Below are positions 23,846 to 52,590 of a stretch of DNA of 64,000 nt, in pieces (position 1 is the first letter of the stretch; each line of letters opens with the position of its first letter). Source of the DNA: Branchiostoma floridae. Taxonomy: Eukaryota > Chordata > Leptocardii > Amphioxiformes > Branchiostomatidae. The position numbers and the translations under genes were made by a program. Under the pieces are notes generated by a model. The model did not search any database and was not told the DNA's origin. It worked only from the letters and a program-made list of their open reading frames with translations. The stretch spans positions 28,384,379-28,448,378 of the forward strand of contig NC_049981.1 of NCBI RefSeq assembly GCF_000003815.2. Direction: 5' to 3'.

Positions 23846-25456
23846 TTACCAGTGTTGTATAACCATATCCAACATCTTGGTGTAAGTCGTCTTGGACCAT
23901 TCGATGGTGGTAGTCTTGGTGTAACCAGAGCTAGAGGAGCGCGTTTTGATGTACTGTGTCATCCTGTCGCGTCGTAAGGACCCTGCCCGCTTCCTCAGCG
24001 TGTAGACGTGATAGACAACGTTCAGCGCCACGGAGACGGCGTACCCAGCCGCCAGCACGCCCAGAGCAGTGGCGCCGTACCAGCGGTACGGGCTGAGCAC
24101 GTACCACAGCGTGACCATGGTGTAGTTCTCCACCGTGATGAGGATGGTGTTGGTGACCAGCGGGACCACGGTGTGCTGCCGGGTGAACGTCACCCAGCTC
24201 ACCACGTCAATCGGCGCCACTGCCAGGATGCTGACCCAAACAGGCTGGAGCTTCAGCTCTTCTTCTCCCTGCACCGCCGCCTGCGTCTTCCCCACCTTGG
24301 TCTCCACCACTGCCATGGTGATCCAGTGCACGGCGATGGGGACAGCGATGTATGGCATCAGGACGGAGCTGAACAGAGCAATGGTCGCCACCCTGCAGCA
24401 CACCTCCACGATCTTCCACGCCGCGAACAGGACGTTACTGATGATCTGAGTCCCCTTCTTCCCACGCTTCCAGTAGTAGTACTCGTACACCATCAGAGCC
24501 TTGACGGCGGCGAGCAGGGAGGTCGTCACCGACGCGATCATCTGGATATTCACGGGAGGAGTTGTAGGACCGCCCGTCTGGGCACTGGAGGCTGTGTCGG
24601 TGTTGTCATGGATGAAGGAGATGTTAATGATGCCAGGCTCCTCCCCTTTACTCCTGTAATGCTGCACGATCGTGATGTACAGCTGTAGGCACAGCTGCGG
24701 CACTGCCTCCAGCATGGTCTCCACCAGATGGATCTGCGGCAGGAACGCGTACTTGCTGTCTCCTATATCCGAGCCTCTCTTGAAGCGCTGGTACAGAACC
24801 CAGTAGTCCACAAACACGCCCATCTGCAGCACGCACAGGACCAGCACCCACCACCCCCTGGTGATGACCCTGTCCATCTCCTGATTCTCGTACCCCAGAC
24901 ACACCCAGGTCCACACCTGCATGACTATGGACGGCAGCAGGATGAAGGCCAGGGTCAGCCCGAACCACGTGTAGTCCCTGCTGTTGTAGTAGGAGACCGC
25001 CAGGAGGACATCAGTCAGCAGATCCACCAGATACAGGCCCAGCGGCAGGACCACGATGATCACCACTTGGACGTAGAAGTTCTGCAGCAGTGACGTCAGT
25101 TTGTCAACACATCCTGAACAACAACCCTTGTTGTCCTCAATCTGCACAGTAGTTTTCTTCTCATACCTTCTTCGCTTTGCCTAAAAAAGAGATAGATTTC
25201 AGGTATACGTACATCTTGATATCTAAAAGGCTACATGTTTAGCATAAGCAGGTAGTACGCTTAAACATACTAAGCTTATACATGTAACGTTAAACACTTC
25301 TTGTGTAACTGCTACGTAGTTTGAGCCAACCGCTAGTGCTGTTTATACAGAAGCGTTATAAACCCCAAATTTGGAGTTTGAGAAGTAAGACATAAGGATA
25401 TCATAGGTTAAGGTGTGATAAGGAACGCTTACCTTCCACCTGCCACCTGTGTCCAT
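23846..25456 (-). CDS. XK-related (XKR) family membrane protein, 452 residues
   Basis: XKR proteins are polytopic plasma-membrane proteins; some family members act as phospholipid scramblases. A short first coding exon (25456-25433, MDTGGRWK) joins in phase 0 to a long exon (25180-23846), with gtaagc donor and ttttttag acceptor. The longest uninterrupted frame alone would miss the true ATG. Family hallmarks are seen: LVDLLTDVLLAVSYY, LLPSIVMQVWTW, HLVETMLEAVPQLCLQLYI, WKIVEVCCRVATIALFSS. I count about eight to ten hydrophobic segments. A basic KRRRYEKK patch precedes the first. The C-terminal tail is Ser/Thr/Lys-rich with no obvious DxxD caspase site, so caspase activation like XKR8 is not supported. 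The coding exon is GC-rich compared with its flanks. The subfamily is not assigned. Confidence 0.9.
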
Positions 25457-36400: not shown

Positions 36401-39400
36401 AACATGACATTATAAATTGTTCTGACATTTTTGTGCACTTGGCTACATCTACAACAACATAGAACAACAGGTTTGTGATGCAAGTCTTGAATTCTAACCA
36501 GGGCTCGAAATTCATTTTTGGGATTAGGTGCACTGGTGCACCCAGCTTTAAAAATTTGGTGCACCAAAAAAATTTTGGGTGCACCACTTAAATTTAAGTA
36601 GGATGTAAAAAAAAATAATAACAAAACTTAGTTACAAGCTATCAAATTCTTAAACAAGTAACATGACAAGACATTTTTATTATCTTTCTAACACTTAGAT
36701 GTCAAGAATATGATACTAGTATACTTGATATCTTTCCATACATAAACCGAAGAAAATATTTGGGTGCACCCTTCCAATTTTGGGTGCACCTGCTAACCAA
36801 AAAATATTTTCACAAGGCACAGAAGAACAGTGGTTTACCAGCATAGAAGACAGTATCAGGGTCTCTATTGTCAGACTGGAGGGCAGATGTCATCTTGTGG
36901 ACCTCAGCCTGAAGTGTGGACTCATCCGAGAACTGGGTAAACCTGGCCAATAACAACAACAACCACATGGGTATATCTTATTGCAATGAATTATCACTTT
37001 AACATGATCCAGCATCACTTGAGAAATCTTATTGCAATTTAAGAGTTACATATGACTAATACATGTATGTTGTAAGAGAAAAAAAAGATAAAAAGCACTA
37101 TTATTAGTATATTTGCAGGGTAGATTTAGCTGTGACTTTCATCTCAAACCTAGGGATTGTCGGCTCTAGCCTTGTTCAACCCTTGTGACAGAGAAGCCAT
37201 ACTTACATTTAACTTAAAAGCTCAGTAGGATTTTTATTTAGTTAGAGTTAGTGATGGTATAATACTTTTTTTTTAATAGTACACAATTTACAACACGGGG
37301 TTGGAAGGTTATTCATTCACAACCAGGACATACAATCATAAAACTTACAGTGGGGTTCAAGCACCGAAATGGGGTACAACCTTTTTGGCGTAGTGGTTAG
37401 CATCATTGGGTTTGTGAGCTGGTGGACCGAGTTCGGTGTAGGTTTGAATCCCTAGAGCCCCGAGACTGTTTATACTCACATGTCGTACAGCATCTTGGCT
37501 GCACCTGCTGTGTTACCTGCAGCTTGTTCAACACTGTAGGCTTCATACTGCAAGGTGTATAAAACATGATTGAGAAGTAAGAACAGGCAAAGAGAATGGA
37601 TCAACAAAGAATAACCATTGTACTAACAATGGCTACAGTATATATTGACAGGGAACAGCCTGTCAATAGTCACTTCCTCTAATAAAGTATGTTGTTAGTT
37701 TTTGTACTTCAGGAAGACTTGGCTACTTTCTAATGTGTGGTAGCTAATAGAGTGAATAAAGTACCCATGTATCCGAGTACCTGAGCTGATTAGTCCATTC
37801 ACTAGTCCATCATGTTCATATATAGGATAGGACTAATCTCCCAGCAGATCCTATGGTAGCTTAGATAGCATCAAAAGCTGTCNNNNNNNNNNNNNNNNNN
37901 NNNNNNNNNNNNNNNNNNNNNNNNNNNNNNNNNNNNNNNNNNNNNNNNNNNNNNNNNNNNNNNNNNNNNNNNNNNNNNNNNNNNNNNNNNNNNNNNNNNN
38001 NNNNNNNNNNNNNNNNNNNNNNNNNNNNNNNNNNNNNNNNNNNNNNNNNNNNNNNNNNNNNNNNNNNNNNNNNNNNNNNNNNNNNNNNNNNNNNNNNNNN
38101 NNNNNNNNNNNNNNNNNNNNNNNNNNNNNNNNNNNNNNNNNNNNNNNNNNNNNNNNNNNNNNNNNNNNNNNNNNNNNNNNNNNNNNNNNNNNNNNNNNNN
38201 NNNNNNNNNNNNNNNNNNNNNNNNNNNNNNNNNNNNNNNNNNNNNNNNNNNNNNNNNNNNNNNNNNNNNNNNNNNNNNNNNNNNNNNNNNNNNNNNNNNN
38301 NNNNNNNNNNNNNNNNNNNNNNNNNNNNNNNNNNNNNNNNNNNNNNNNNNNNNNNNNNNNNNNNNNNNNNNNNNNNNNNNNNNNNNNNNNNNNNNNNNNN
38401 NNNNNNNNNNNNNNNNNNNNNNNNNNNNNNNNNNNNNNNNNNNNNNNNNNNNNNNNNNNNNNNNNNNNNNNNNNNNNNNNNNNNNNNNNNNNNNNNNNNN
38501 NNNNNNNNNNNNNNNNNNNNNNNNNNNNNNNNNNNNNNNNNNNNNNNNNNNNNNNNNNNNNNNNNNNNNNNNNNNNNNNNNNNNNNNNNNNNNNNNNNNN
38601 NNNNNNNNNNNNNNNNNNNNNNNNNNNNNNNNNNNNNNNNNNNNNNNNNNNNNNNNNNNNNNNNNNNNNNNNNNNNNNNNNNNNNNNNNNNNNNNNNNNN
38701 NNNNNNNNNNNNNNNNNNNNNNNNNTCCAAATAGTTGATGTACATAAAGAAAGTAAGGCATCGCTCGTTTTCAAGGCACTTAACGGCATGACCCCTCCCC
38801 ATCTTGCTGCATTGTTCTCCCAATTCTCAGAAATACACACACATAATACCCGTCTTAGATCACAAGGTAGACTCCTGCTGCCTAAAGCTAAATCTGAATA
38901 TAGAAAGAAAGCTTTTTCATACTCAGGGGCGGTGCTCTGGAATTCCCTGTCGTCCCAATTAAGATCTGCGAGGACACTGTCACAGTTTAAACGATTGTAT
39001 GACCAGGACTAAAGGATTCTGATTGTATATATTTTAACTTTAGTTCCTGTCATATCACAGCGGATCCTTTTGTTTGATTTCTGTATTATGTTTTGATGCT
39101 AAGACTGACATTTATGTTCTCTTCTGACTGTTATTTTTCATTTGCAAATCAACTTTGAAACAAACGCTGCCCGACCAGCGACACCTTGATATGCAAATTC
39201 CACTTTTCGTTACTTTGATTTTAAGTTGATCCACTGCCTGAATGTATTATTATTGTTATTATTACTACCATCATTATATTAAGTTATCCTGAGTTATTTG
39301 TATTGTAAATAGTTGACACCTGATGTTTAGTTATTTAAGTTTGACCTTTGATTTCAATTTTGATTCAGTTGTTGTGATTTTGTGTTATTTTATGTTGGGT

Positions 39401-39871
39401 TCTCCCCGCCCCCCAGGAGGTATTGAAAAACGCCAATAGGCGATGTATTTTTCTGGATAAATAAATAAACTGAAACTGAAACTGAACTGAAGAGTGTGTT
39501 TCGCTACATGGCAAATGGACAACTCTTTGCTGACTACAGTCCTTTGCCAGTTTGATGCCATTGTAGGATCTGCTTGGAGATAAGGATAGGACTGGACAGG
39601 GTTTTCCGCATTCCGGACTGGACAGGTTTTTCCGAAAACCCAGGAAAATGACTGAAACAGATACACTGCCCCCCTCCACCATGCACATACACAGTTGTAT
39701 CTCGTGATAAACGATGCTGTTACACACCTGCACGGAGAATTCCCCAGGAAAGAGTGTTCTAGCCGTGATGAGCCATGCCTTGGCGGCGTGAGGGTCTGAC
39801 TTCAGGCTTTCCCGGGCCCGATTCACCAGCCAAGCCGAATCTTCCCGCGAGTTTTGCTTCGCGGCAGCCAT
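27405..39871 (-). CDS. INTS10: Integrator complex subunit 10
   Basis: Subunit of the nuclear Integrator complex (snRNA 3' processing and transcription attenuation). Minus-strand exons in order: 39871-39728, 37547-37480, 36942-36839, 36382-36326, 36148-36066, 35795-35714, 34412-34293, 33820-33610, 33236-33073, 32562(gap)-32413, 32248-32166, 31139-31059, 30698-30639, 30156-30057, 29810-29731, 29440-29278, 28918-28822, 27561-27405 (TAG). Phases agree at every join I could test. About 668 codons are visible and about 40 more are probably hidden in the gap at 32563-32662. Matches to vertebrate INTS10 include [46 protein letters not shown] and [14 protein letters not shown]. The start is the ATG giving MAAAKQNS; upstream in-frame sequence has no ATG. 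Intron 1 holds a LINE fragment and the 843-base gap. Confidence 0.95.
28210..28550. repeat. Tandem repeat of about 113 bp, three copies
   Basis: Units beginning gcagttaggcaacaggatag / agttaggaaacaggatagaa start near 28213, 28326 and 28438. The third is incomplete. They lie in the last INTS10 intron and are noncoding. Confidence 0.8.
29020..29220. repeat. (GGAT)n tetranucleotide microsatellite
   Basis: About 200 bases of ggat units, pure in the middle and degenerate at both ends, in an INTS10 intron. It produces long open frames of WMDG or IHPS repeats on both strands that are not genes. Confidence 0.95.
30318..30530 (+). mobile_element. MITE, 'tactgtaaatgcattt' family, copy 2
   Basis: Starts tactgtaaatgcatttaagt and ends gcatttacagta. 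It contains three ttcgcggtggttttaagtt-like segments. It is the better-preserved relative of 5624-5831, in opposite orientation, in an INTS10 intron. Confidence 0.75.
31257..31440. repeat. Inverted-repeat segment, probably MITE remnant
   Basis: gaccaatcagaagg faces ccttctgattggtca. Next to it gtcagaatgaatcgacatcg faces the complement ending attcattctgac. Noncoding, in an INTS10 intron. Confidence 0.5.
31772..31934. mobile_element. Near-perfect palindromic MITE flanked by TTAA
   Basis: TGACCCGCC...GGCGGGTCA ends, with arms including ggtgtcataacgcctggtcc and the matching complement almost to the centre (cgcttcgctcactcagtgg). TTAA lies on each side (31768-31771, 31935-31938). The hairpin is about 163 bases. 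Confidence 0.8.
32563..32662. other. Assembly gap of 100 N
   Basis: Exactly 100 N, the usual placeholder for a gap of unknown length. It removes the 5' part of one INTS10 exon and its acceptor. Confidence 0.99.
34040..34260. repeat. Tandem duplication in INTS10 intron
   Basis: Two copies of about 110 bases share tgtgttacaagtacatctgg, caatctgctggatt and gcagttcacaa. They end just before the exon at 34293. Confidence 0.8.
34473..35347. mobile_element. Foldback element with cattggcataataccggtc termini
   Basis: Starts cattggcataataccggtc and ends gaccggtattatgccaatg. The core of about 830 bases holds an open frame at 34925-35110 (starts MAGKWRR) that matches nothing I know. It lies in an INTS10 intron. 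The target duplication is unclear. Confidence 0.65.
36499..36800 (+). mobile_element. hAT-like MITE fragment with GGTGCACC motifs
   Basis: Begins CAGGGCTCGAAAT like the element at 14509. It carries several ggtgcacc/gggtgcacc motifs near both sides. The expected closing terminus is missing, so the right end is truncated or diverged. INTS10 intron. Confidence 0.6.
37385..37475 (+). mobile_element. tRNA-like SINE head
   Basis: A-box-like ggcgtagtggttagcat and B-box-like ggtttgaatccc are spaced as in a tRNA. No good acceptor stem is seen, so it is more likely a SINE piece than a tRNA gene. It lies next to the INTS10 exon 37480-37547, just beyond its donor. Confidence 0.55.
37883..38725. other. 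Assembly gap of 843 N
   Basis: Run of N in INTS10 intron 1. It also removes the 5' part of the LINE fragment that begins at 38726. Confidence 0.99.
38726..39470 (+). mobile_element. Non-LTR retrotransposon (LINE) 3' end
   Basis: Open from the gap edge to TAA at 39010-39012. The frame encodes the C-terminal end typical of jockey/CR1-like reverse transcriptase proteins: [30 protein letters not shown], then LSQFKRL. A 3' UTR follows to about 39470, ending in aataaataaactgaaactg with short repeats. The element is opposite in sense to its host gene INTS10. The RT domain is lost in the gap or absent. Confidence 0.85.
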
Positions 39872-40115
39872 TTTGGAAAATGAATAGCTGTCTACTCCAA
39901 ACCTTTTAGTGCCTAAAATTTCTCTCGCAGAAAATGTCACTTTCTCCTCCAAAATTTATCGCAAACTCTCGCAAAATTAGAATATTTTTACTATCAGAAT
40001 CAAAAACGTGTTCCTATTGATTCTTGGTGGTCACTATGAATTCTGTTCAGCGCTATTATTGCGTTTTAGTAGCAGGCATGCGTACATTTGTGACGGCTGA
40101 CAAAATTAGTCGAAG
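39872..40115. promoter_or_regulatory. Divergent promoter between INTS10 and PCBD-type gene
   Basis: 244 bases separate the two start codons (ATG at 39871 on -, ATG at 40116 on +). No TATA box is apparent. Head-to-head housekeeping genes at this spacing commonly share one promoter; shared regulation is inferred. Confidence 0.65.
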
Positions 40116-42642: not shown

Positions 42643-43810
42643 TGTCACAGTGGAGATCACGATCCAGGAGAATCGCCGATCCTCCTAGGAGAGATCGCGA
42701 TCGGAGTTTCTCCTAGGAGAAACTCCGATAGATATAAGAAACAGATCCCGATCGCAATCTGTACTAATAGAATCGGCGATTCTCCTAGTATAGATTGCGA
42801 TCGGGATTTCTCCTAGGAAAAACTCCGATCCAAACTCAAACGATGCTAAGATGTATGAAACAGCAATAATTTTTTTGATAAACAATGATTTTATTCGGTA
42901 TTAATGCAAACCTACTAACTCATTACCAACTACACTCAAGCCTACTTGTGTCACTTCTACAATGTTAACTTCAACGAAGACTATCACACTTGAGTCACTT
43001 CTGCAACTTTACTCAAGGTACACTATAGTATATAGCATCACTATCATGGTAAATTTCATGTGAGTATGTTTTCTGATAAAGTAATTTCTGATAAAGTAAT
43101 ATCTTTTAAAGTAGTGGCAAAAATCTTATAATATGTGAAAGACACCAACAGGTGATCAAACAATGTGTCAGTATGCAAATTTCACGGCTTTGGAAGAACA
43201 ATAACAACTGTAAAGTTGTCAAACAGGTGTCAAAAAATCAAGCAGAGTTTCAAGATATTACTCACAATTTCACAGCTATTGAGTACATTTCACTAGTCAG
43301 ACTTGTACTGAATCATTTCACAGCTTTGGAAGAACAGTAACCATTTGACCAATAACCTATTGAGTACATTCACTAGTCAGACGTGTATGGCATCAAGAAG
43401 TGACAATAGTGAGGTAGCATTGAGTAGAAGTGTGCATTGAGTAAAGTTGCAGAAGTGACTCAAGTGTGGTAGTCTTTGGTGAAGTTAACATTGTAGAAGT
43501 ACAGAAGTAGGCTTGAGTGTAGTTGGTAATGAGTCAGGAGGTTTGCATTTGAAACTGAATAAAATCATTGTTTATCAAAAAAATTATTGCTGTTTCATAC
43601 ATCTTAGCATCGTTTGAGTTTGGATCGGAGTTTCTCCTAGGAGAGATCCCGATTGCAATCTGTACTAGGAGAATCGCCGATTCTACTAGTACAGATTGCG
43701 ATCAGGATCTGTTTCCTATATCTATCGTAGTTTCTCCTAGGAGAAACTCCGATCGCGATCTCTCCTAGGAGGATCGCCAATTCTCCTGGATCGTGATCTC
43801 CACTGTGACA
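42643..43810. mobile_element. Foldback element with palindrome-rich arms and TA flanks
   Basis: Starts TGTCACAGTGGAGATC and ends GATCTCCACTGTGACA, flanked by TA. Arms of about 380 bases (42643 to about 43022 and about 43434-43810) are inverted copies. They are packed with small palindromes such as tcctagga and gatcgcgatc. Matching frames at 42685-42885 and 43568-43768 are reflections of the two arms. No transposase. Confidence 0.85.
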
Positions 43811-44177
43811 TATATATCAAAGACATTCACTGGACCATTACAAATGCACACATCTGACACCTACCGTCGCTAAGACACCCAACGTAGAATTACACAGCCC
43901 AGACATTTGTAAAGTTACCGACGGATTCTGCAATATTCAACAGTGCTTCGTTTCTACGGTGAGTTGGGGCATTCAAACTTCAAATGAAGTCTAGATCTGC
44001 GTACGTACGTTGTGCTTCGCTATTCATACTGGTCGTCAAAAGTGAAAGCGGTTCCACAAATCTAAAAATAACGCTCAGCCGGTCTCTAAAACAGAAGCAT
44101 GTCGCTCAGACAAAGTAAAATGCAAAGAACATTGAACTGCTCCGTTCTTTTAGAACATTAATTTGATGTTATATATA

Positions 44178-44615
44178 TGTAACAGTGGTGTTTAAGTACT
44201 GCCTATCGTCCTTGCCCAAACGCACTAGTGCTTTTGTGGCGACGGTGATAGCGTTCGTGATTTGTGTTCTGCCGACCCCGGTTCGATTCCGGGTAGGGGG
44301 CATGTTGTTTCTTTCTGTTCTTACTCGCCCCTCTGAATTTCTACAATGGTTCCCACGCCGGCCCTGTGAGTAACAGGCTAGTATGTGCCACACAGGGATG
44401 TCGAACTCGGAGATTCGAGGACGAATCTTGAAGAAAAGGGGGAGTAGTGTAACAGTGGTGTTTAAGTACTGCCTATCGTCCTTGCCCAAACGCACTAGTG
44501 CTTTTGTGGCGACGGTGATAGCGTTCGTGATTTGTGTTCTGCCGACCCCGGTTCGATTCCGGGTAGGGGGCATGTTGTTCCTTTCTGTTCTTACTCGCCC
44601 CTCTGAATTTCTACA
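44178..44615 (+). mobile_element. Miniature LTR element (TRIM-like) with tRNA-like segment in each LTR
   Basis: Two direct 168-base repeats (44178-44345, 44448-44615) differ at about one base. Each starts TGTAACAG and ends TTTCTACA, the TG...CA form of LTRs. The 102-base interior starts with A then TGGTTCCCACG, like a primer-binding site. It ends in the purine run gaagaaaagggggag just before the second LTR, like a polypurine tract. TATA flanks both sides. The interior codes nothing. Each LTR contains gtggcgacggtgatagcg and ggttcgattcc with a perfect five-pair T stem (CCCGG/CCGGG), a tRNA-like segment with A and B box character. Confidence 0.8.
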
Positions 44616-44903
44616 TATACGAGAAATAGAAGGTGTAAGCAAAGGGAACGACGTCAACACACGTAAATACACTATGCGGCATGACACTTCAAAATGGCGG
44701 CAATTATAGAAAGTGAATTCGAAAGTAAAGTTAAGAGGGAAAACGTCTTAATCAGTGCTTGAATCAGAGGTGGCAGTGGTGTTTATGGAAAAGGGCATAG
44801 GACAGAGGTGTATGTAATTTTCCATGTTACGACAATTTTGTACCATACAGGATACGAAAACATCTTTGTTGATACCATTCAGACATCCATAACAACGGTC
44901 GCC

Positions 44904-47645
44904 ATGTCTGTTGTTGGGGTTACCGGCGGGACAAAGAAAAACCAAAGGGAAGAAAGGTCTGTTCTTATTCTAATAGTTGTTATGTTTCATTGATGATGTT
45001 TTTTTTTCGTAACAACCCTGTGGCTCTTGATTTGCAACTGCCAATAATAATTTTAGATATTCTGACCAAGGAGCTTTCATCGATCCCAACAGGGGCAGAG
45101 AGAATGAGGCGTATGTTGATGACGACTCCATCCTACCCAGTGCTTCAGAGGAGCAGGCCAATGATTCAGCGACTTCCAAACAAATGTACGTACTCAGTAC
45201 AAAAAATACTGAAACGATCTGACCTTTTACAAAATCTAGCCATAGAGTTAGGCTTGGTAATTTTGCACTGTGTTCAGACATACCTGCCCGGTGTGCTACG
45301 TGCCCGTGGGCCCCTCCAGTTAACGGACAGGTCGCTAGGAGTGTAATTTACGTCAGGTCGTTTTACGCGGTATCTCTTGTCATAATATAGGCACAGAGAC
45401 ACCAGTGCGTCCTACCAGGTCGATCAGTCATCAGGAGTAACTGATGTCAAGGTGACCATCGTAGATGACGTTGAACAAGAGACCAGTTCGTCTGACGAGG
45501 TGGATGATACCACACAGCAGAGTGAAGCTCCTCCGAGGTAATCTTGTGTCACTTGGGATGATTCAATTTAGCACCAATAAATGAAAGGTTATTTTGCTTA
45601 TAACACTCCGCGTCTCAAACCGTAATTGAGTGGATCCCTATAACTAGAGACTAATCTCCATGCAGATATTGCGGCGGTTTAAGATACATTTGTAGTATCA
45701 TAAGCTGAGGAAGGAGTTTAGCCGGCAAAGGACTTTTATTCCACCGCGAATGATACTATCTGAAAGTTAAACCGCCGCGCAAGATCTGCTTGGAGATTAG
45801 CCACAAACTGTACCTCTTATATAATGAATCAATATCGCGCATGCTACTAGTATGAAAAAGCAAACGAAGCGTTACAGTGTTACTTCAACGTTTTTCCAGG
45901 TCTGATGCTCAAAGCAGCGTCAGGAGTGAAACTGAAAAGACTGAATCAGGACAATATCAAGACCACGAAGAAGTCATCAGAGCAGACCATGGCGTCGACG
46001 AAAATGGAGAACAACAGGCACCGAACGCGGAAGACAACCGCGACCCAGAAAATAACCAGAAAAGATCAGAATCTACTAGCCTTAATCAGCAGTTTGCTAA
46101 CCATGCCGTCGCTGTTATCTGTCTATTGCTTTGCGTTAGCGCCTGCTTGGTAAACATTGCCTCTATCTTTCTCACGGTTTCATGCCTGTGGGGTCTATCC
46201 CCCGATGTGAGTGATGGGAACGTTGTTTATTCAAAAGGGAACAACACTATCACATGTGATCCATACGAGTCTCAGGAAAACATACCGTACAATCTTATCG
46301 ACCTCCTACTAGCGTTACAACCGATTGTTGTTATAGTTCTCTGGAAATACGGAGGTATTGCTGAAAGAATAGAGAAATACGAGGAAAAGGGTGATTACGA
46401 AGAAGAGCAAAAGGACAATACTACCGCAGACGTCGCACTGGTTATTTCGTTATGATTACCATAGCCCTGTTTTTCCTTCTTCACTGTGTAGAGTGCGCAA
46501 CCTGTTCTTTTTCTAGTCCAACTATTTTCTTTGGAACATTGGTCCGCGGTGTTCCCAAAAGCGTTTGTCCGTGGTTGAGCCTTCTGTTCCATCTCGTGTT
46601 CCCGGGATATTGCCTGTATTGTTGGTATGCCACTAAAATGGCCTGCGTGCTCCGCAGACGAGCGTACTACATTCGGAAGTACATCCAATCGGGCAAGAGT
46701 TCGACCATTTTCGATGAAAACGTAGGTCGGCCCGATATAATTCGGAGAAAACTTAACGACAACATTTTCGACGACAATTGGCACAGTGAAATTTGGGAGA
46801 ACATTTCCTTCCTCATGAACATCATGATGTTCTTCAGCGCTACGTTGGTACTGTTGTACACCCATGTGTATGTATCCGAAGTCCGCCTAACCCTAGGGGA
46901 ATGGACAACTCACTTCATGCGACTTGTTTCTATAGCCACCCTTTCCGTTGTCCCGTACATACACGTTGCTTTTGCCTGCGTCCGTGTGACTGAAGCCTAT
47001 AGTTACATAGCGGAGAGTATGGGTGGTGCATTTCAAGAGTCATACAGTCATACTTCGATCCAAGAATCGCACGAAAATTCCTTAGACATTTCGCAGGAAC
47101 CGGCTGGGTTAGATGGCCGGACTTGTCCAAGTACTCAGAACAGAGACGGGGAAAATACGTCGCTCGAGCGACTGGAATATCTCATTCAATGGCAATTCCT
47201 GCAGAGCAAGGTGTACAAAAAGTGTAAGGATGGGTTGACATCTGGGATATTGGGTTCGTCGTACACTACCCGCAGCGGTGTCCACTTGGCGTCGCTAGGC
47301 GTAATTATCGCTATGACATGGGAGGTTCTGGACCGTCTGAATGACTTTGACGTGGAGAGAGCAATCGCGCTTGGGAACACGAGGCAGGAAGCTTTCATCG
47401 TGACTCTCTTTGGTGTTCTTGCCTTCGTACTCTGGATCTCAGCTGCCAGCATCCTTTTATGCTATCGTTTAACGCACAAGATATGTGACTGCACCAAGTG
47501 TTTTGCACCACATGCAGTAAATAGGCGACTGATTGTGTACATAGTTCTTACAATTCTTTACTTCCTCGGCATGTACGTGGCTTTCTATCTTGTCGTTTAT
47601 CAGGACAGTTATTGTTACAGTTCATCCAACCCTCTGTTCGTATAA
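44904..47645 (+). CDS. Unrecognised polytopic membrane protein, paralogue A, with apparent frameshift
   Basis: I do not recognise this family. Four exons fit in phase: 44904-44956 (good Kozak, gccATG), 45057-45185, 45391-45537 and 45900-47645 (TAA). The N-terminal third is acidic, Ser-rich and probably cytosolic. About nine hydrophobic segments follow. Motifs shared with paralogue B (50323-52590): HCVEC, CWYAT.MACVLRRRA, YTHVY.SEV.LTLG, HVAFACVRVTEA, YTTR.GVH and a C-terminal NPL. A CDPYESQE-type loop with an N-glycosylation site (NNT) follows segment 1. Near 46411-46420 the frame breaks: upstream ends at TGA 46453-46455, while the next frame continues as YYRRRRTGYF, matching YRLRRTCYF of B. 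One missing base restores a 691-codon frame. A sequencing error, allele or new pseudogene are all possible. The weakest splice call is the gtctgt donor of exon 1. Confidence 0.75.
45651..45800. mobile_element. Short MITE in intron 3 of paralogue A
   Basis: Inverted ends ctaatctccatgcagatatt and its complement from gcaagatctgcttggagattag. Inner gcggcggttt faces aaaccgccgcgc. About 150 bases. Confidence 0.75.
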
Positions 47646-50322: not shown

Positions 50323-52590
50323 ATGGCAGATAACAGAAGATCTCAAAGCATCAAGTCTTTGGGGAGACAAAGCACACCTGGACTTTTGAACTTCAATCCT
50401 GACAACTGGAATCAATCAAGCAATAACCAGGTAAGTGGTCAAGAAGTTACTCCTCCAACTCAAACCAACCCAGAGAAACATGTCGGAGCATTATCGCTAA
50501 CGTTCTCTCTCTTCTTTTTTTGTTTCATTGCCTGTCTTAACTATACGTTGTATTAGGTAGCATTACTCTGGTTGCTTAATGAACGTGTAATCCTAACCGT
50601 GACCTTTGGGAAAAGCATTGCAAAAGACAGCTTTAGAAGTATTTCTACAAGGATAAACATCTCCAAGGATGTGACAGAATCAAAAACGTAATCCTTATAT
50701 CCTTTTTCTTCGTCGTTCTTCAAGAAAACCCAAGACAACCCCGCATTTCGAGATGATGAGGAAGCAGGCTCGGCAGGGACTACAGAAAGCCAACAAGAAG
50801 AATCGCCTAGTAGTATGGAGCAAGGTGTAAATAATGGTCAGACAAGTGACCCGAAACCGCTGCCATGTAAGAATATCATCGTTATTGTTCTTTCTCTCCT
50901 TTTCTGTTTCATTGGTTGCATTAACTACATAGGCAGTATTGGTCTGGAGGTTTTGTGCATGTGGGATCTGAACTTGGGGCGAAGCATGGCAAACTCAGTG
51001 GCAGGGATGCATACAAACCAAACTTGGTCAAGGATAAACGACACATGTGATCCCGCGAAATCTCAGGAGGATATCCCTTATGACCTGATTGACCTTGTAC
51101 TTTACATTCAACCTGCCATTGTTGTTATCTTCTGGAAATTCAAATTGGCAAAGCACGTTGATGAATACGAAGGAGGTTACGGTACCGACAAACAGGAGAA
51201 AAACTACCGTTTGCGTCGCACTTGCTACTTCATTTCCTTGAACTGGTTATTCCTTTTCCTTTTCCACTGCGTGGAATGTACAAGTTGTTCTTTCTTAAAC
51301 CCCAACGTTGTTTTCGGCACGGCGATTGAAATTATAAACAAAACAGCTTGCCCCTGGATAAGCATCGCCTTTCAAATGACGCTAGTGCCCGTGTACAGCT
51401 TGTGCTGTTGGTACGCCACTAACATGGCATGCGTGCTTCGCCGACGAGCTAAGAAGATAAAGGAAAAATCCGAGCAACTTTTTGGCACTGATAATCAAAC
51501 TAAAGATCCAAGGGCGATTCTAAAGGAACTATATACGGAGTTACTCTATGATACTTGGGGTGAGAAAGTTTGGAAGAATATTTCTTTTGTCATGAACATC
51601 ATGATGTATATCGCCGTCATCCTTTGTCTACTTTACACACATGTGTACATATCGGAAGTCGAGCTGACACTGGGGGCATGGTTTAGTCACTTCATGCGGC
51701 TGTTGACTATAGCATCTCTAGCTCTAACACCTTACATGCACGTTGCATTTGCCTGTGTTAGAGTGACCGAAGCGTTTAAGAAGATGTCAGAAAAAAGTAT
51801 AGAAGCCGAGCGACAGGATTACCATACAGACAGTAAGTACAATGATCATATTGCTGATTATGAATCTCGGGACTCAGGTCATGTTGACATGGGAGATATA
51901 GCAGTGCAGTGCGGTATCCCCAGCGAGAGGGAGAAGAGAGCTGATCGAATAAAAAATCGTGTCCAAGTGACCAAAGCGATGAAAGCAAGGCGGAACGATT
52001 TAACATTTGAAGATTCCCACACTAACCAGAGTGCTAAATCTGAGGAAGTTAAGATAGCTATTGAAATAAAAGAGATAGTCCAGTCGAGTGAAAGACGTGC
52101 ACAGTGGGCCAGGCTAATCAAAGAGATAGCCAAAGCTCAGGATACAGTGCTTTATAATGGGATACTTAGTTCGCTGTACACAACCCGGAATGGTGTACAC
52201 TGGACTATGTTAGGCATGGTAGGCGCTGTGGCATGGGAAGTTCTTGACCACTTAAATGCCTTTGACGAGAGCAAGGTCAGTGACACAAGTAAGGAAAGGT
52301 TTATGGTGGCATTGTTCGGTGCTCTGGCACTTGCAGCCGGCATGTCAGGGGTGCTGTTTGTGTTGTTTTGGCAGATCTGTGGCTGCTGCGGTTGTGGCAA
52401 TGTGCCGTTCAAAAAGACATGTTGCACAAACCTATCGTACAAAACAGGTGAAACGGACAAAACGAAAACGAAAATTTGCCTGGTCGCATTTGCAACCCTT
52501 ATCCTATGGAGCACAATATATACTTGTTTCTACTTCGCCGTCTCCGAGGATAATGATTGCACAATGGAACTGAATCCTCTTGTTACATAG
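50323..52590 (+). CDS. Unrecognised polytopic membrane protein, paralogue B, 657 residues
   Basis: Unrecognised family; intact copy of the pair. Exon 1 is 50323-50430 (MADNRRSQSIKSLG..., donor gtaagt), exon 2 is 50725-52590 (TAG), joined in phase 0. The N-terminus is acidic with PSS/EE stretches. Nine or so hydrophobic segments start at IIVIVLSLLFCFIGCINYIG. Cysteines cluster in HCVECTSCSF and ICGCCGCGN. A basic patch (CVLRRRAKKIKEK) follows segment 4. A charged cytosolic-type loop of about 150 residues separates segments 6 and 7. Four hydrophobic segments follow the HCVEC motif before that loop. The order and spacing of motifs equal those of paralogue A, 2.7 kb upstream in the same orientation, so the pair arose by tandem duplication. 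No receptor, channel or transporter signature that I know is present. Confidence 0.85.
50441..50690 (+). pseudogene. Decayed copy of the first membrane-segment exon in intron 1 of paralogue B
   Basis: The intron sequence translates to SLFFFCFIACLNYT, stop, then WLLN and FGKSIAKDSFRSISTRIN. This parallels SLLFCFIGCINYIG, MWDLN, LGRSMANSV and SRINDTC in exon 2. DNA similarity runs from tttcattg.ctg..ttaacta to aggataaac. The frame is open from the exon 1 donor to TAG, so intron retention would yield an 89-residue, one-segment protein. Confidence 0.7.

Follow-up and report, generated by a model that had tools for sequence, protein, structure and literature searches.

Results

The window, by which we denote the whole 64-kb stretch of lancelet DNA that was analysed, contains several genes and a short repeat-bounded element at 44178-44615 (coordinates are on the plus strand unless otherwise stated). 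On the minus strand, an XK-related gene (23846-25147; Pfam PF09815, E 7.8e-43) consists of a single long ORF encoding 433 aa, and a further segment (39365-39952), probably an exon, matches Integrator complex subunit 10 over its residues 4-44; both indicate animal DNA. Beyond the element, two neighbouring plus-strand genes (45877-47645 and 50815-52590) appear by eye to encode multi-pass-membrane-like proteins; 46452-47645 and 50815-52590 share 36% identity across 453 aligned positions, and the three ORFs of these genes have no Pfam match at E 0.01.

The element itself is bounded by two direct repeats of 168 nt, delimited by repeat finding and blastn: a 5' LTR (44178-44345, TGTAAC...TCTACA) and a 3' LTR (44448-44615), whose starts are 270 nt apart and which agree at 167 of 168 positions, the sole difference being T/C at LTR position 133. 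Both copies start with TG and end with CA. A first-pass annotation of this DNA had described 168-base TG...CA direct repeats with about one mismatch, and its boundaries prove to be exact; it had also called the 102-base interior empty, and no sense ORF of at least 150 aa overlaps the 102 nt between the LTRs (44346-44447). With a short LTR pair, a non-coding interior and a total length of 438 bp, below the 1 kb expected of a TRIM, the element has a G+C content of 51%, as against 41% in its flanks.

Comparison of the flanks finds TATA on either side (44174-44177 and 44616-44619), a duplication of 4 bp whose match stops short of a fifth base, so that the target duplication of 4-5 bp which the annotation had proposed to look for is present at this copy. 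Because the insertion site is TA-rich, the 4-bp duplication by itself is modest evidence of insertion; alongside the rest of the evidence, it is consistent with an insertion made by an integrase. The near-identity of the LTRs (one difference in 168, or 0.6%) suggests a recent, possibly still active copy, in line with the recent insertion that had been proposed.

The signals for reverse transcription are found at either end of the interior. A primer-binding site (44347-44361), previously noted as a primer-site-like TGG..., starts one base past the 5' LTR, where the sequence is TGGTTCCCACGCCGG. When all N-free 15-mers on both strands of the window were compared with 22 primer sites (animal tRNA 3' ends), this site matched the complement of the tRNA-Glu(UUC) 3' end at 14 of 15 bases. 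The mismatch would form a G.U pair in RNA, and the match ends past base 15 (14/18). No other site-primer pair in the window reaches at least 13 matches; 26 pairs have 12, one of them being the same site compared with tRNA-Glu(CUC). The exact primer string had no occurrence in the literature searched.

At the 3' end of the interior the order is a polypurine tract, GAAGAAAAGGGGGAG (44430-44444), then TAG, then the 3' LTR, which bears out the purine tract claimed at first. The tract is among six purine runs of at least 15 that a scan found on the plus strand of the window and alone among them carries GGGGG; a further 11 runs of this length lie on the minus strand, the GGGGG comparison covering the plus strand. 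A likeness of the 3' interior to the ends of Gypsy chromoviruses was considered and dropped as unsupported, the literature matches to TTCGAGGACGAA being unrelated by title. Adjoining the 3' side of the primer site is a possible stem-loop, CCCTGTG...CACAGGG (44362-44397), recovered as a blastn self-match (72% over 36 nt, E 0.098) and recurring in the two folds computed below for the predicted RNA. Though weak when taken singly, it might serve in packaging or reverse transcription.

The primer site at the 5' LTR, the purine tract at the 3' LTR, the target site duplication and the TG...CA ends are those of a TRIM, and together with the LTR pair they agree on the layout that the first reading had given the element. 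The named primer (tRNA-Glu) and the 4-bp duplication are additions to that reading.

Each LTR further contains the B box, the perfect T stem and the A-box-like text that had been ascribed to it, all of which were located by pattern scan. The B box, GGTTCGATTCC, lies at 44280-44290 in the 5' LTR and at 44550-44560 in the 3' LTR, and the T stem around it (44277-44281/44289-44293 in the 5' copy) is CCCGG/CCGGG, a perfect 5 bp. The A-box-like text, TGGCGACGGTG, lies at 44237-44247 and 44507-44517, 43 nt upstream of the B box, with the order and strand right and the spacing tRNA-like. A strict B box, GGTTCRANNCC, occurs twice on the two strands of the window, both times within the LTRs; the loose form GWTCRANNC is common, with 15 occurrences in the window. 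Against the A box of Helenus, which is mostly TRGCY with YGG, the A box TGGCGACGG fits at TRGC and CGG and is mismatched at the Y of TRGCY; the LTR presents the Helenus combination of an A box with a B box GGTTC, the A box being imperfect.

The promoter boxes are conspicuous; the cloverleaf is not. ARAGORN at its default setting reports no tRNA at the element. At -ps90 it reports the LTR segment, and when the LTR is dinucleotide-shuffled, 2 of 1000 shuffles also score; at -ps80 it is positive for 55 of 1000 shuffles and for 25 places in the window, two of which are the LTRs, and the relaxed output for the LTR segment gives an undetermined isotype and a two-letter anticodon. Rfam also gave no tRNA: it matched no family up to E 1 over the 1001 bases of 43900-44900, and in a search of 101 bases to E 10 tRNA was absent among the matches listed, from which one lower-scoring match of a shared clan had been dropped without its name. 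Those listed were two of T-stem size to tmRNA, one to a lncRNA and a partial one to EBER1 (E 0.24, with 14.6 bits where the gathering score is 50) that we treated as chance. Furthermore, the 73-nt tRNA-like segment folds no better than its shuffles (z 0.44; 121 of 200 equally stable). Because there is no default ARAGORN call, no tRNA among the listed Rfam matches and no fold better than shuffles, the tRNA part looks like a degenerate promoter relic rather than a tRNA, and a functional tRNA gene with cloverleaf and anticodon was rejected on the same three grounds.

Blastn found no second copy of the element in the 64-kb window; it returned the element's match to itself, its own inverted repeat (E 5e-4) and otherwise short pieces at E of at least 0.07. 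Nor was an autonomous partner recognised in the window by blastn and a six-frame text scan, which contained no CCHC motif and two YxDD texts, at 1255 and 44986, the latter flanked by stops. The text at 1255 on the plus strand is YADD (EYADDMEL), possibly a remnant of a reverse transcriptase. Pattern scans for related loci in viral contigs gave no match, phages gave none at E 1e-5, and two pattern matches in prokaryotic MAGs (bacterial and archaeal contigs scanned) were taken as chance.

Discussion

These observations give good support to a TRIM layout in which each LTR carries a tRNA-like pol III segment, and from its sequence we consider the element likely to be a Helenus-type TRIM: an LTR retrotransposon of 438 bp, neither coding nor autonomous, with a degenerate tRNA-derived A box and B box in its LTRs. 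The alternative that survives best would retain the TRIM and dispense with the promoter: a Gypsy-derived TRIM of the ordinary pol II type, in which the A-box and B-box text is a relic or a chance occurrence with no transcriptional role. The degenerate tRNA fold and the missing default tRNA call speak for such an element, and a weak TATA-like TTTAAG at LTR 14-19 could serve to set a pol II start near LTR 44. Yet chance or a silent relic must then account for a strict B box found nowhere else in the window, its perfect 5-bp T stem, an A-box-like text that lies 43 nt ahead of it in the correct order and on the correct strand, and an ARAGORN level that only 2 of 1000 shuffles reach. AATAAA and ATTAAA are absent from the element in a pattern scan, as are TATAAA and TATATA; the absence of the first two also tells against pol II, a weak point given that the element is short. 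On balance we regard the pol II alternative as distinctly unlikely.

A tandem pair of tRNA-derived SINEs separated by a spacer and mobilised by a LINE would likewise place a tRNA-like promoter in each repeat, but it does not sit with the TG/CA ends and 4-bp duplication, with a tRNA-Glu primer site and a purine tract at opposite ends of the spacer, or with a repeat that by eye ends in neither an A-rich nor a simple tail. The first-pass annotation had itself raised an ordinary tandem SINE array lacking primer site, purine tract and target duplication, and as all three are present at the locus we reject this highly improbable reading on their account. A retrozyme, whose LTRs contain hammerhead ribozymes and which is likewise a small LTR element, would share the small size, primer site and purine tract, but no Rfam family, and hence no ribozyme, hammerhead included, was found up to E 1 over 43900-44900, which leaves that assignment with almost no probability.

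The Helenus-type assignment places the element among systems that have already been described. Helenus comprises TRIMs with tRNA-derived sequence in their LTRs (Kojima 2024, PMC10886601), reported from fungi, Selaginella and six animal phyla including Chordata, where the hosts are coelacanth, sterlet, paddlefish, cyprinids and other ostariophysan fishes (PMC10886601, Table 1). The likeness extends to a pair of short LTRs that bear A and B boxes, a primer site, a purine tract and a gene-free interior; to a length, 438 bp, inside the published range of 311-1263 bp; to a 4-bp duplication like those of animal Helenus; and to the predicted use of a tRNA 3' end as primer, tRNA-Glu being listed among the primers of bivalve Helenus (PMC10886601). 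Animal Helenus also have Gypsy-like primer sites (PMC10886601); no Gypsy partner was recognised in the window. This is a likeness to layout and published description rather than to an aligned consensus, and Branchiostoma, amphioxus and lancelet have no mention in the main text of PMC10886601. In the open-access literature searched (titles and starts of abstracts), no lancelet TRIM or Helenus member was found. As such, the element probably joins the already known group Helenus as a new member. Of the first-pass proposal of a tRNA-derived analogue of Cassandra, the kind of element does exist; the parallel invention that it envisaged had already been published as Helenus (PMC10886601). A lancelet host would extend tRNA-promoter TRIMs to an invertebrate chordate and add to their patchy distribution among animals. 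Pol III transcription, the TRIMp3 criterion, is called unproven for Helenus by the 2024 author too (PMC10886601).

If pol III does read the element, the position of its start and stop signals deserves attention. We consider these signals in LTR coordinates, in which the A-box-like text of the 5' copy occupies positions 60-70.

Transcription from tRNA-type promoters usually starts about 10-20 nt before the A box, and because of this usual distance a start is predicted near LTR 41-50 (44218-44227), a zone derived from the A-box distance only. Just before the A box, at LTR 55-58, a pattern scan finds TTTT (44232-44235 in the 5' LTR), the only sense-strand T4 of the 270-nt repeat unit; its counterpart in the 3' LTR (44502-44505) is the putative pol III terminator of the element RNA. 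Around the predicted start the LTR is self-complementary: an inverted repeat at LTR 24-77 (44201-44254) straddles it, with a fold of -21.7 kcal/mol that 1 of 1000 dinucleotide shuffles equals, and has at its centre a perfect 10-nt palindrome, GCACTAGTGC (LTR 45-54, 44222-44231), which overlaps the predicted R region; the palindrome count, N runs left out, is 89. Over its full length the LTR folds only a little better than its shuffles, of which 36 in 500 are equally stable. Because the predicted start lies near the centre of the inverted repeat, its two arms would come to lie at opposite ends of the RNA and could pair there as a panhandle.

The start site, the T4 range and the panhandle were all picked post hoc, with the sequence already seen, and the following figures are to be read accordingly: in 5000 shuffles of the repeat unit, T4 was confined to LTR 44-59 in 2% and absent in 14%; the predicted duplex of the RNA ends reaches -40.4 kcal/mol when the RNA starts at LTR 41 or LTR 44, -33.7 at LTR 47 and -28.1 at LTR 50, each reached by none of 1000 shuffles, and is weaker for a start at LTR 53 (-23.2; 11 of 1000). 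The predicted RNA as a whole has a fold of z -3.10 when started at LTR 44 (1 of 200 shuffles equally stable) and of z -2.24 when started at LTR 47 (3 of 200). One and the same inverted repeat forms both the LTR hairpin and the panhandle, and a single copy cannot separate the two.

From these positions a cycle of replication may be postulated. RNA polymerase III would start at about LTR 41-50 of the 5' LTR, read past the promoter-proximal 5' TTTT, a read-through which proximity to the start could permit, cross the interior and halt at the TTTT of the 3' LTR, yielding an RNA some 279-288 nt long whose first 9-18 nt recur at its 3' end as a short R repeat. The tRNA-Glu would then prime minus-strand DNA, the short R repeat would let the strand jump happen, with some help from pairing of the RNA ends, and the purine tract would prime the plus strand; finally, the integrase of an unseen Gypsy element would insert the copy and leave the 4-bp duplication. 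That the presumed terminator is a minimal TTTT, and that its 5' copy must be read through, counts against the pol III model.

The geometry so proposed has precedents in part. In Cassandra, according to PMC10886601, transcription starts and stops in the 5S part, giving the RNA terminal duplications of 18 bp, and its RNA has been modelled as a super-hairpin whose stems are formed by the LTRs (PMC7215508). The element shares with Cassandra the placing of pol III promoter text (here predicted) inside the LTR of a TRIM, and its predicted terminal repeat of 9-18 nt would correspond to the 18 bp of Cassandra, and its predicted RNA-end pairing recalls the LTR-stem super-hairpin. Cassandra, however, is 5S rRNA-derived, belongs to plants and is transcribed, whereas the element is tRNA-derived and its transcription is a prediction. 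Ajax, a nemertean TRIM with a partial 5S promoter (PMC10886601), is likewise an animal element with the promoter of a small-RNA gene in its LTRs; it differs in its 5S derivation, its 5-bp duplications and its tRNA-Leu primer. For the pairing of RNA ends a parallel is offered by Ty1, in which the CYC5:CYC3 interaction between 5' and 3' element RNA aids reverse transcription (PMC5454406). The predicted panhandle would act alike and might aid strand transfer, although Ty1 is another element with other sequences and the panhandle here is a prediction.

Promoter-proximal TTTT, short R and RNA-end pairing found no treatment for Helenus in the available main text of PMC10886601, in which a word scan returned 'terminator' once, about Cassandra, and 'hairpin', 'inverted repeat' and 'circulariz' not at all. 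The terminator placement and the RNA-end pairing are what is new here, as predictions. It is tempting to see in the element an invertebrate-chordate Helenus with its terminator within the start region, such that promoter, start and stop share one self-complementary segment of the LTR and the RNA has a tiny R and an end panhandle assisting first strand transfer, a tRNA-based counterpart to the 5S solution of terminal redundancy in Cassandra. We put this forward tentatively, as a serious possibility that we nonetheless find rather doubtful. If true, such a geometry would be a way for a tRNA-promoter transcript to gain the terminal repeat that LTR replication needs.

Some further features of the element and its flank were observed. 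An antisense ORF of 172 codons (44169-44687, minus strand) spans the entire element; it is the only ORF of at least 150 aa to overlap it, consists mostly of repeated LTR sequence and is probably incidental, remaining open through the element because the repeat spacing, 270, divides evenly by three. An 18-nt inverted match of 94% links the left end of the element, together with its TA-rich target (44171-44188), to a site about 350 bp upstream (43800-43817); it is probably chance, since by eye the likeness to the LTR ends after 11 LTR bases. About 400 bp upstream of the element, 43624-43787 consists of nested inverted and direct repeats of TCTCCTAGGAGA-like units, with a 64-nt direct repeat 83% alike and 58-nt inverted arms 76% alike.
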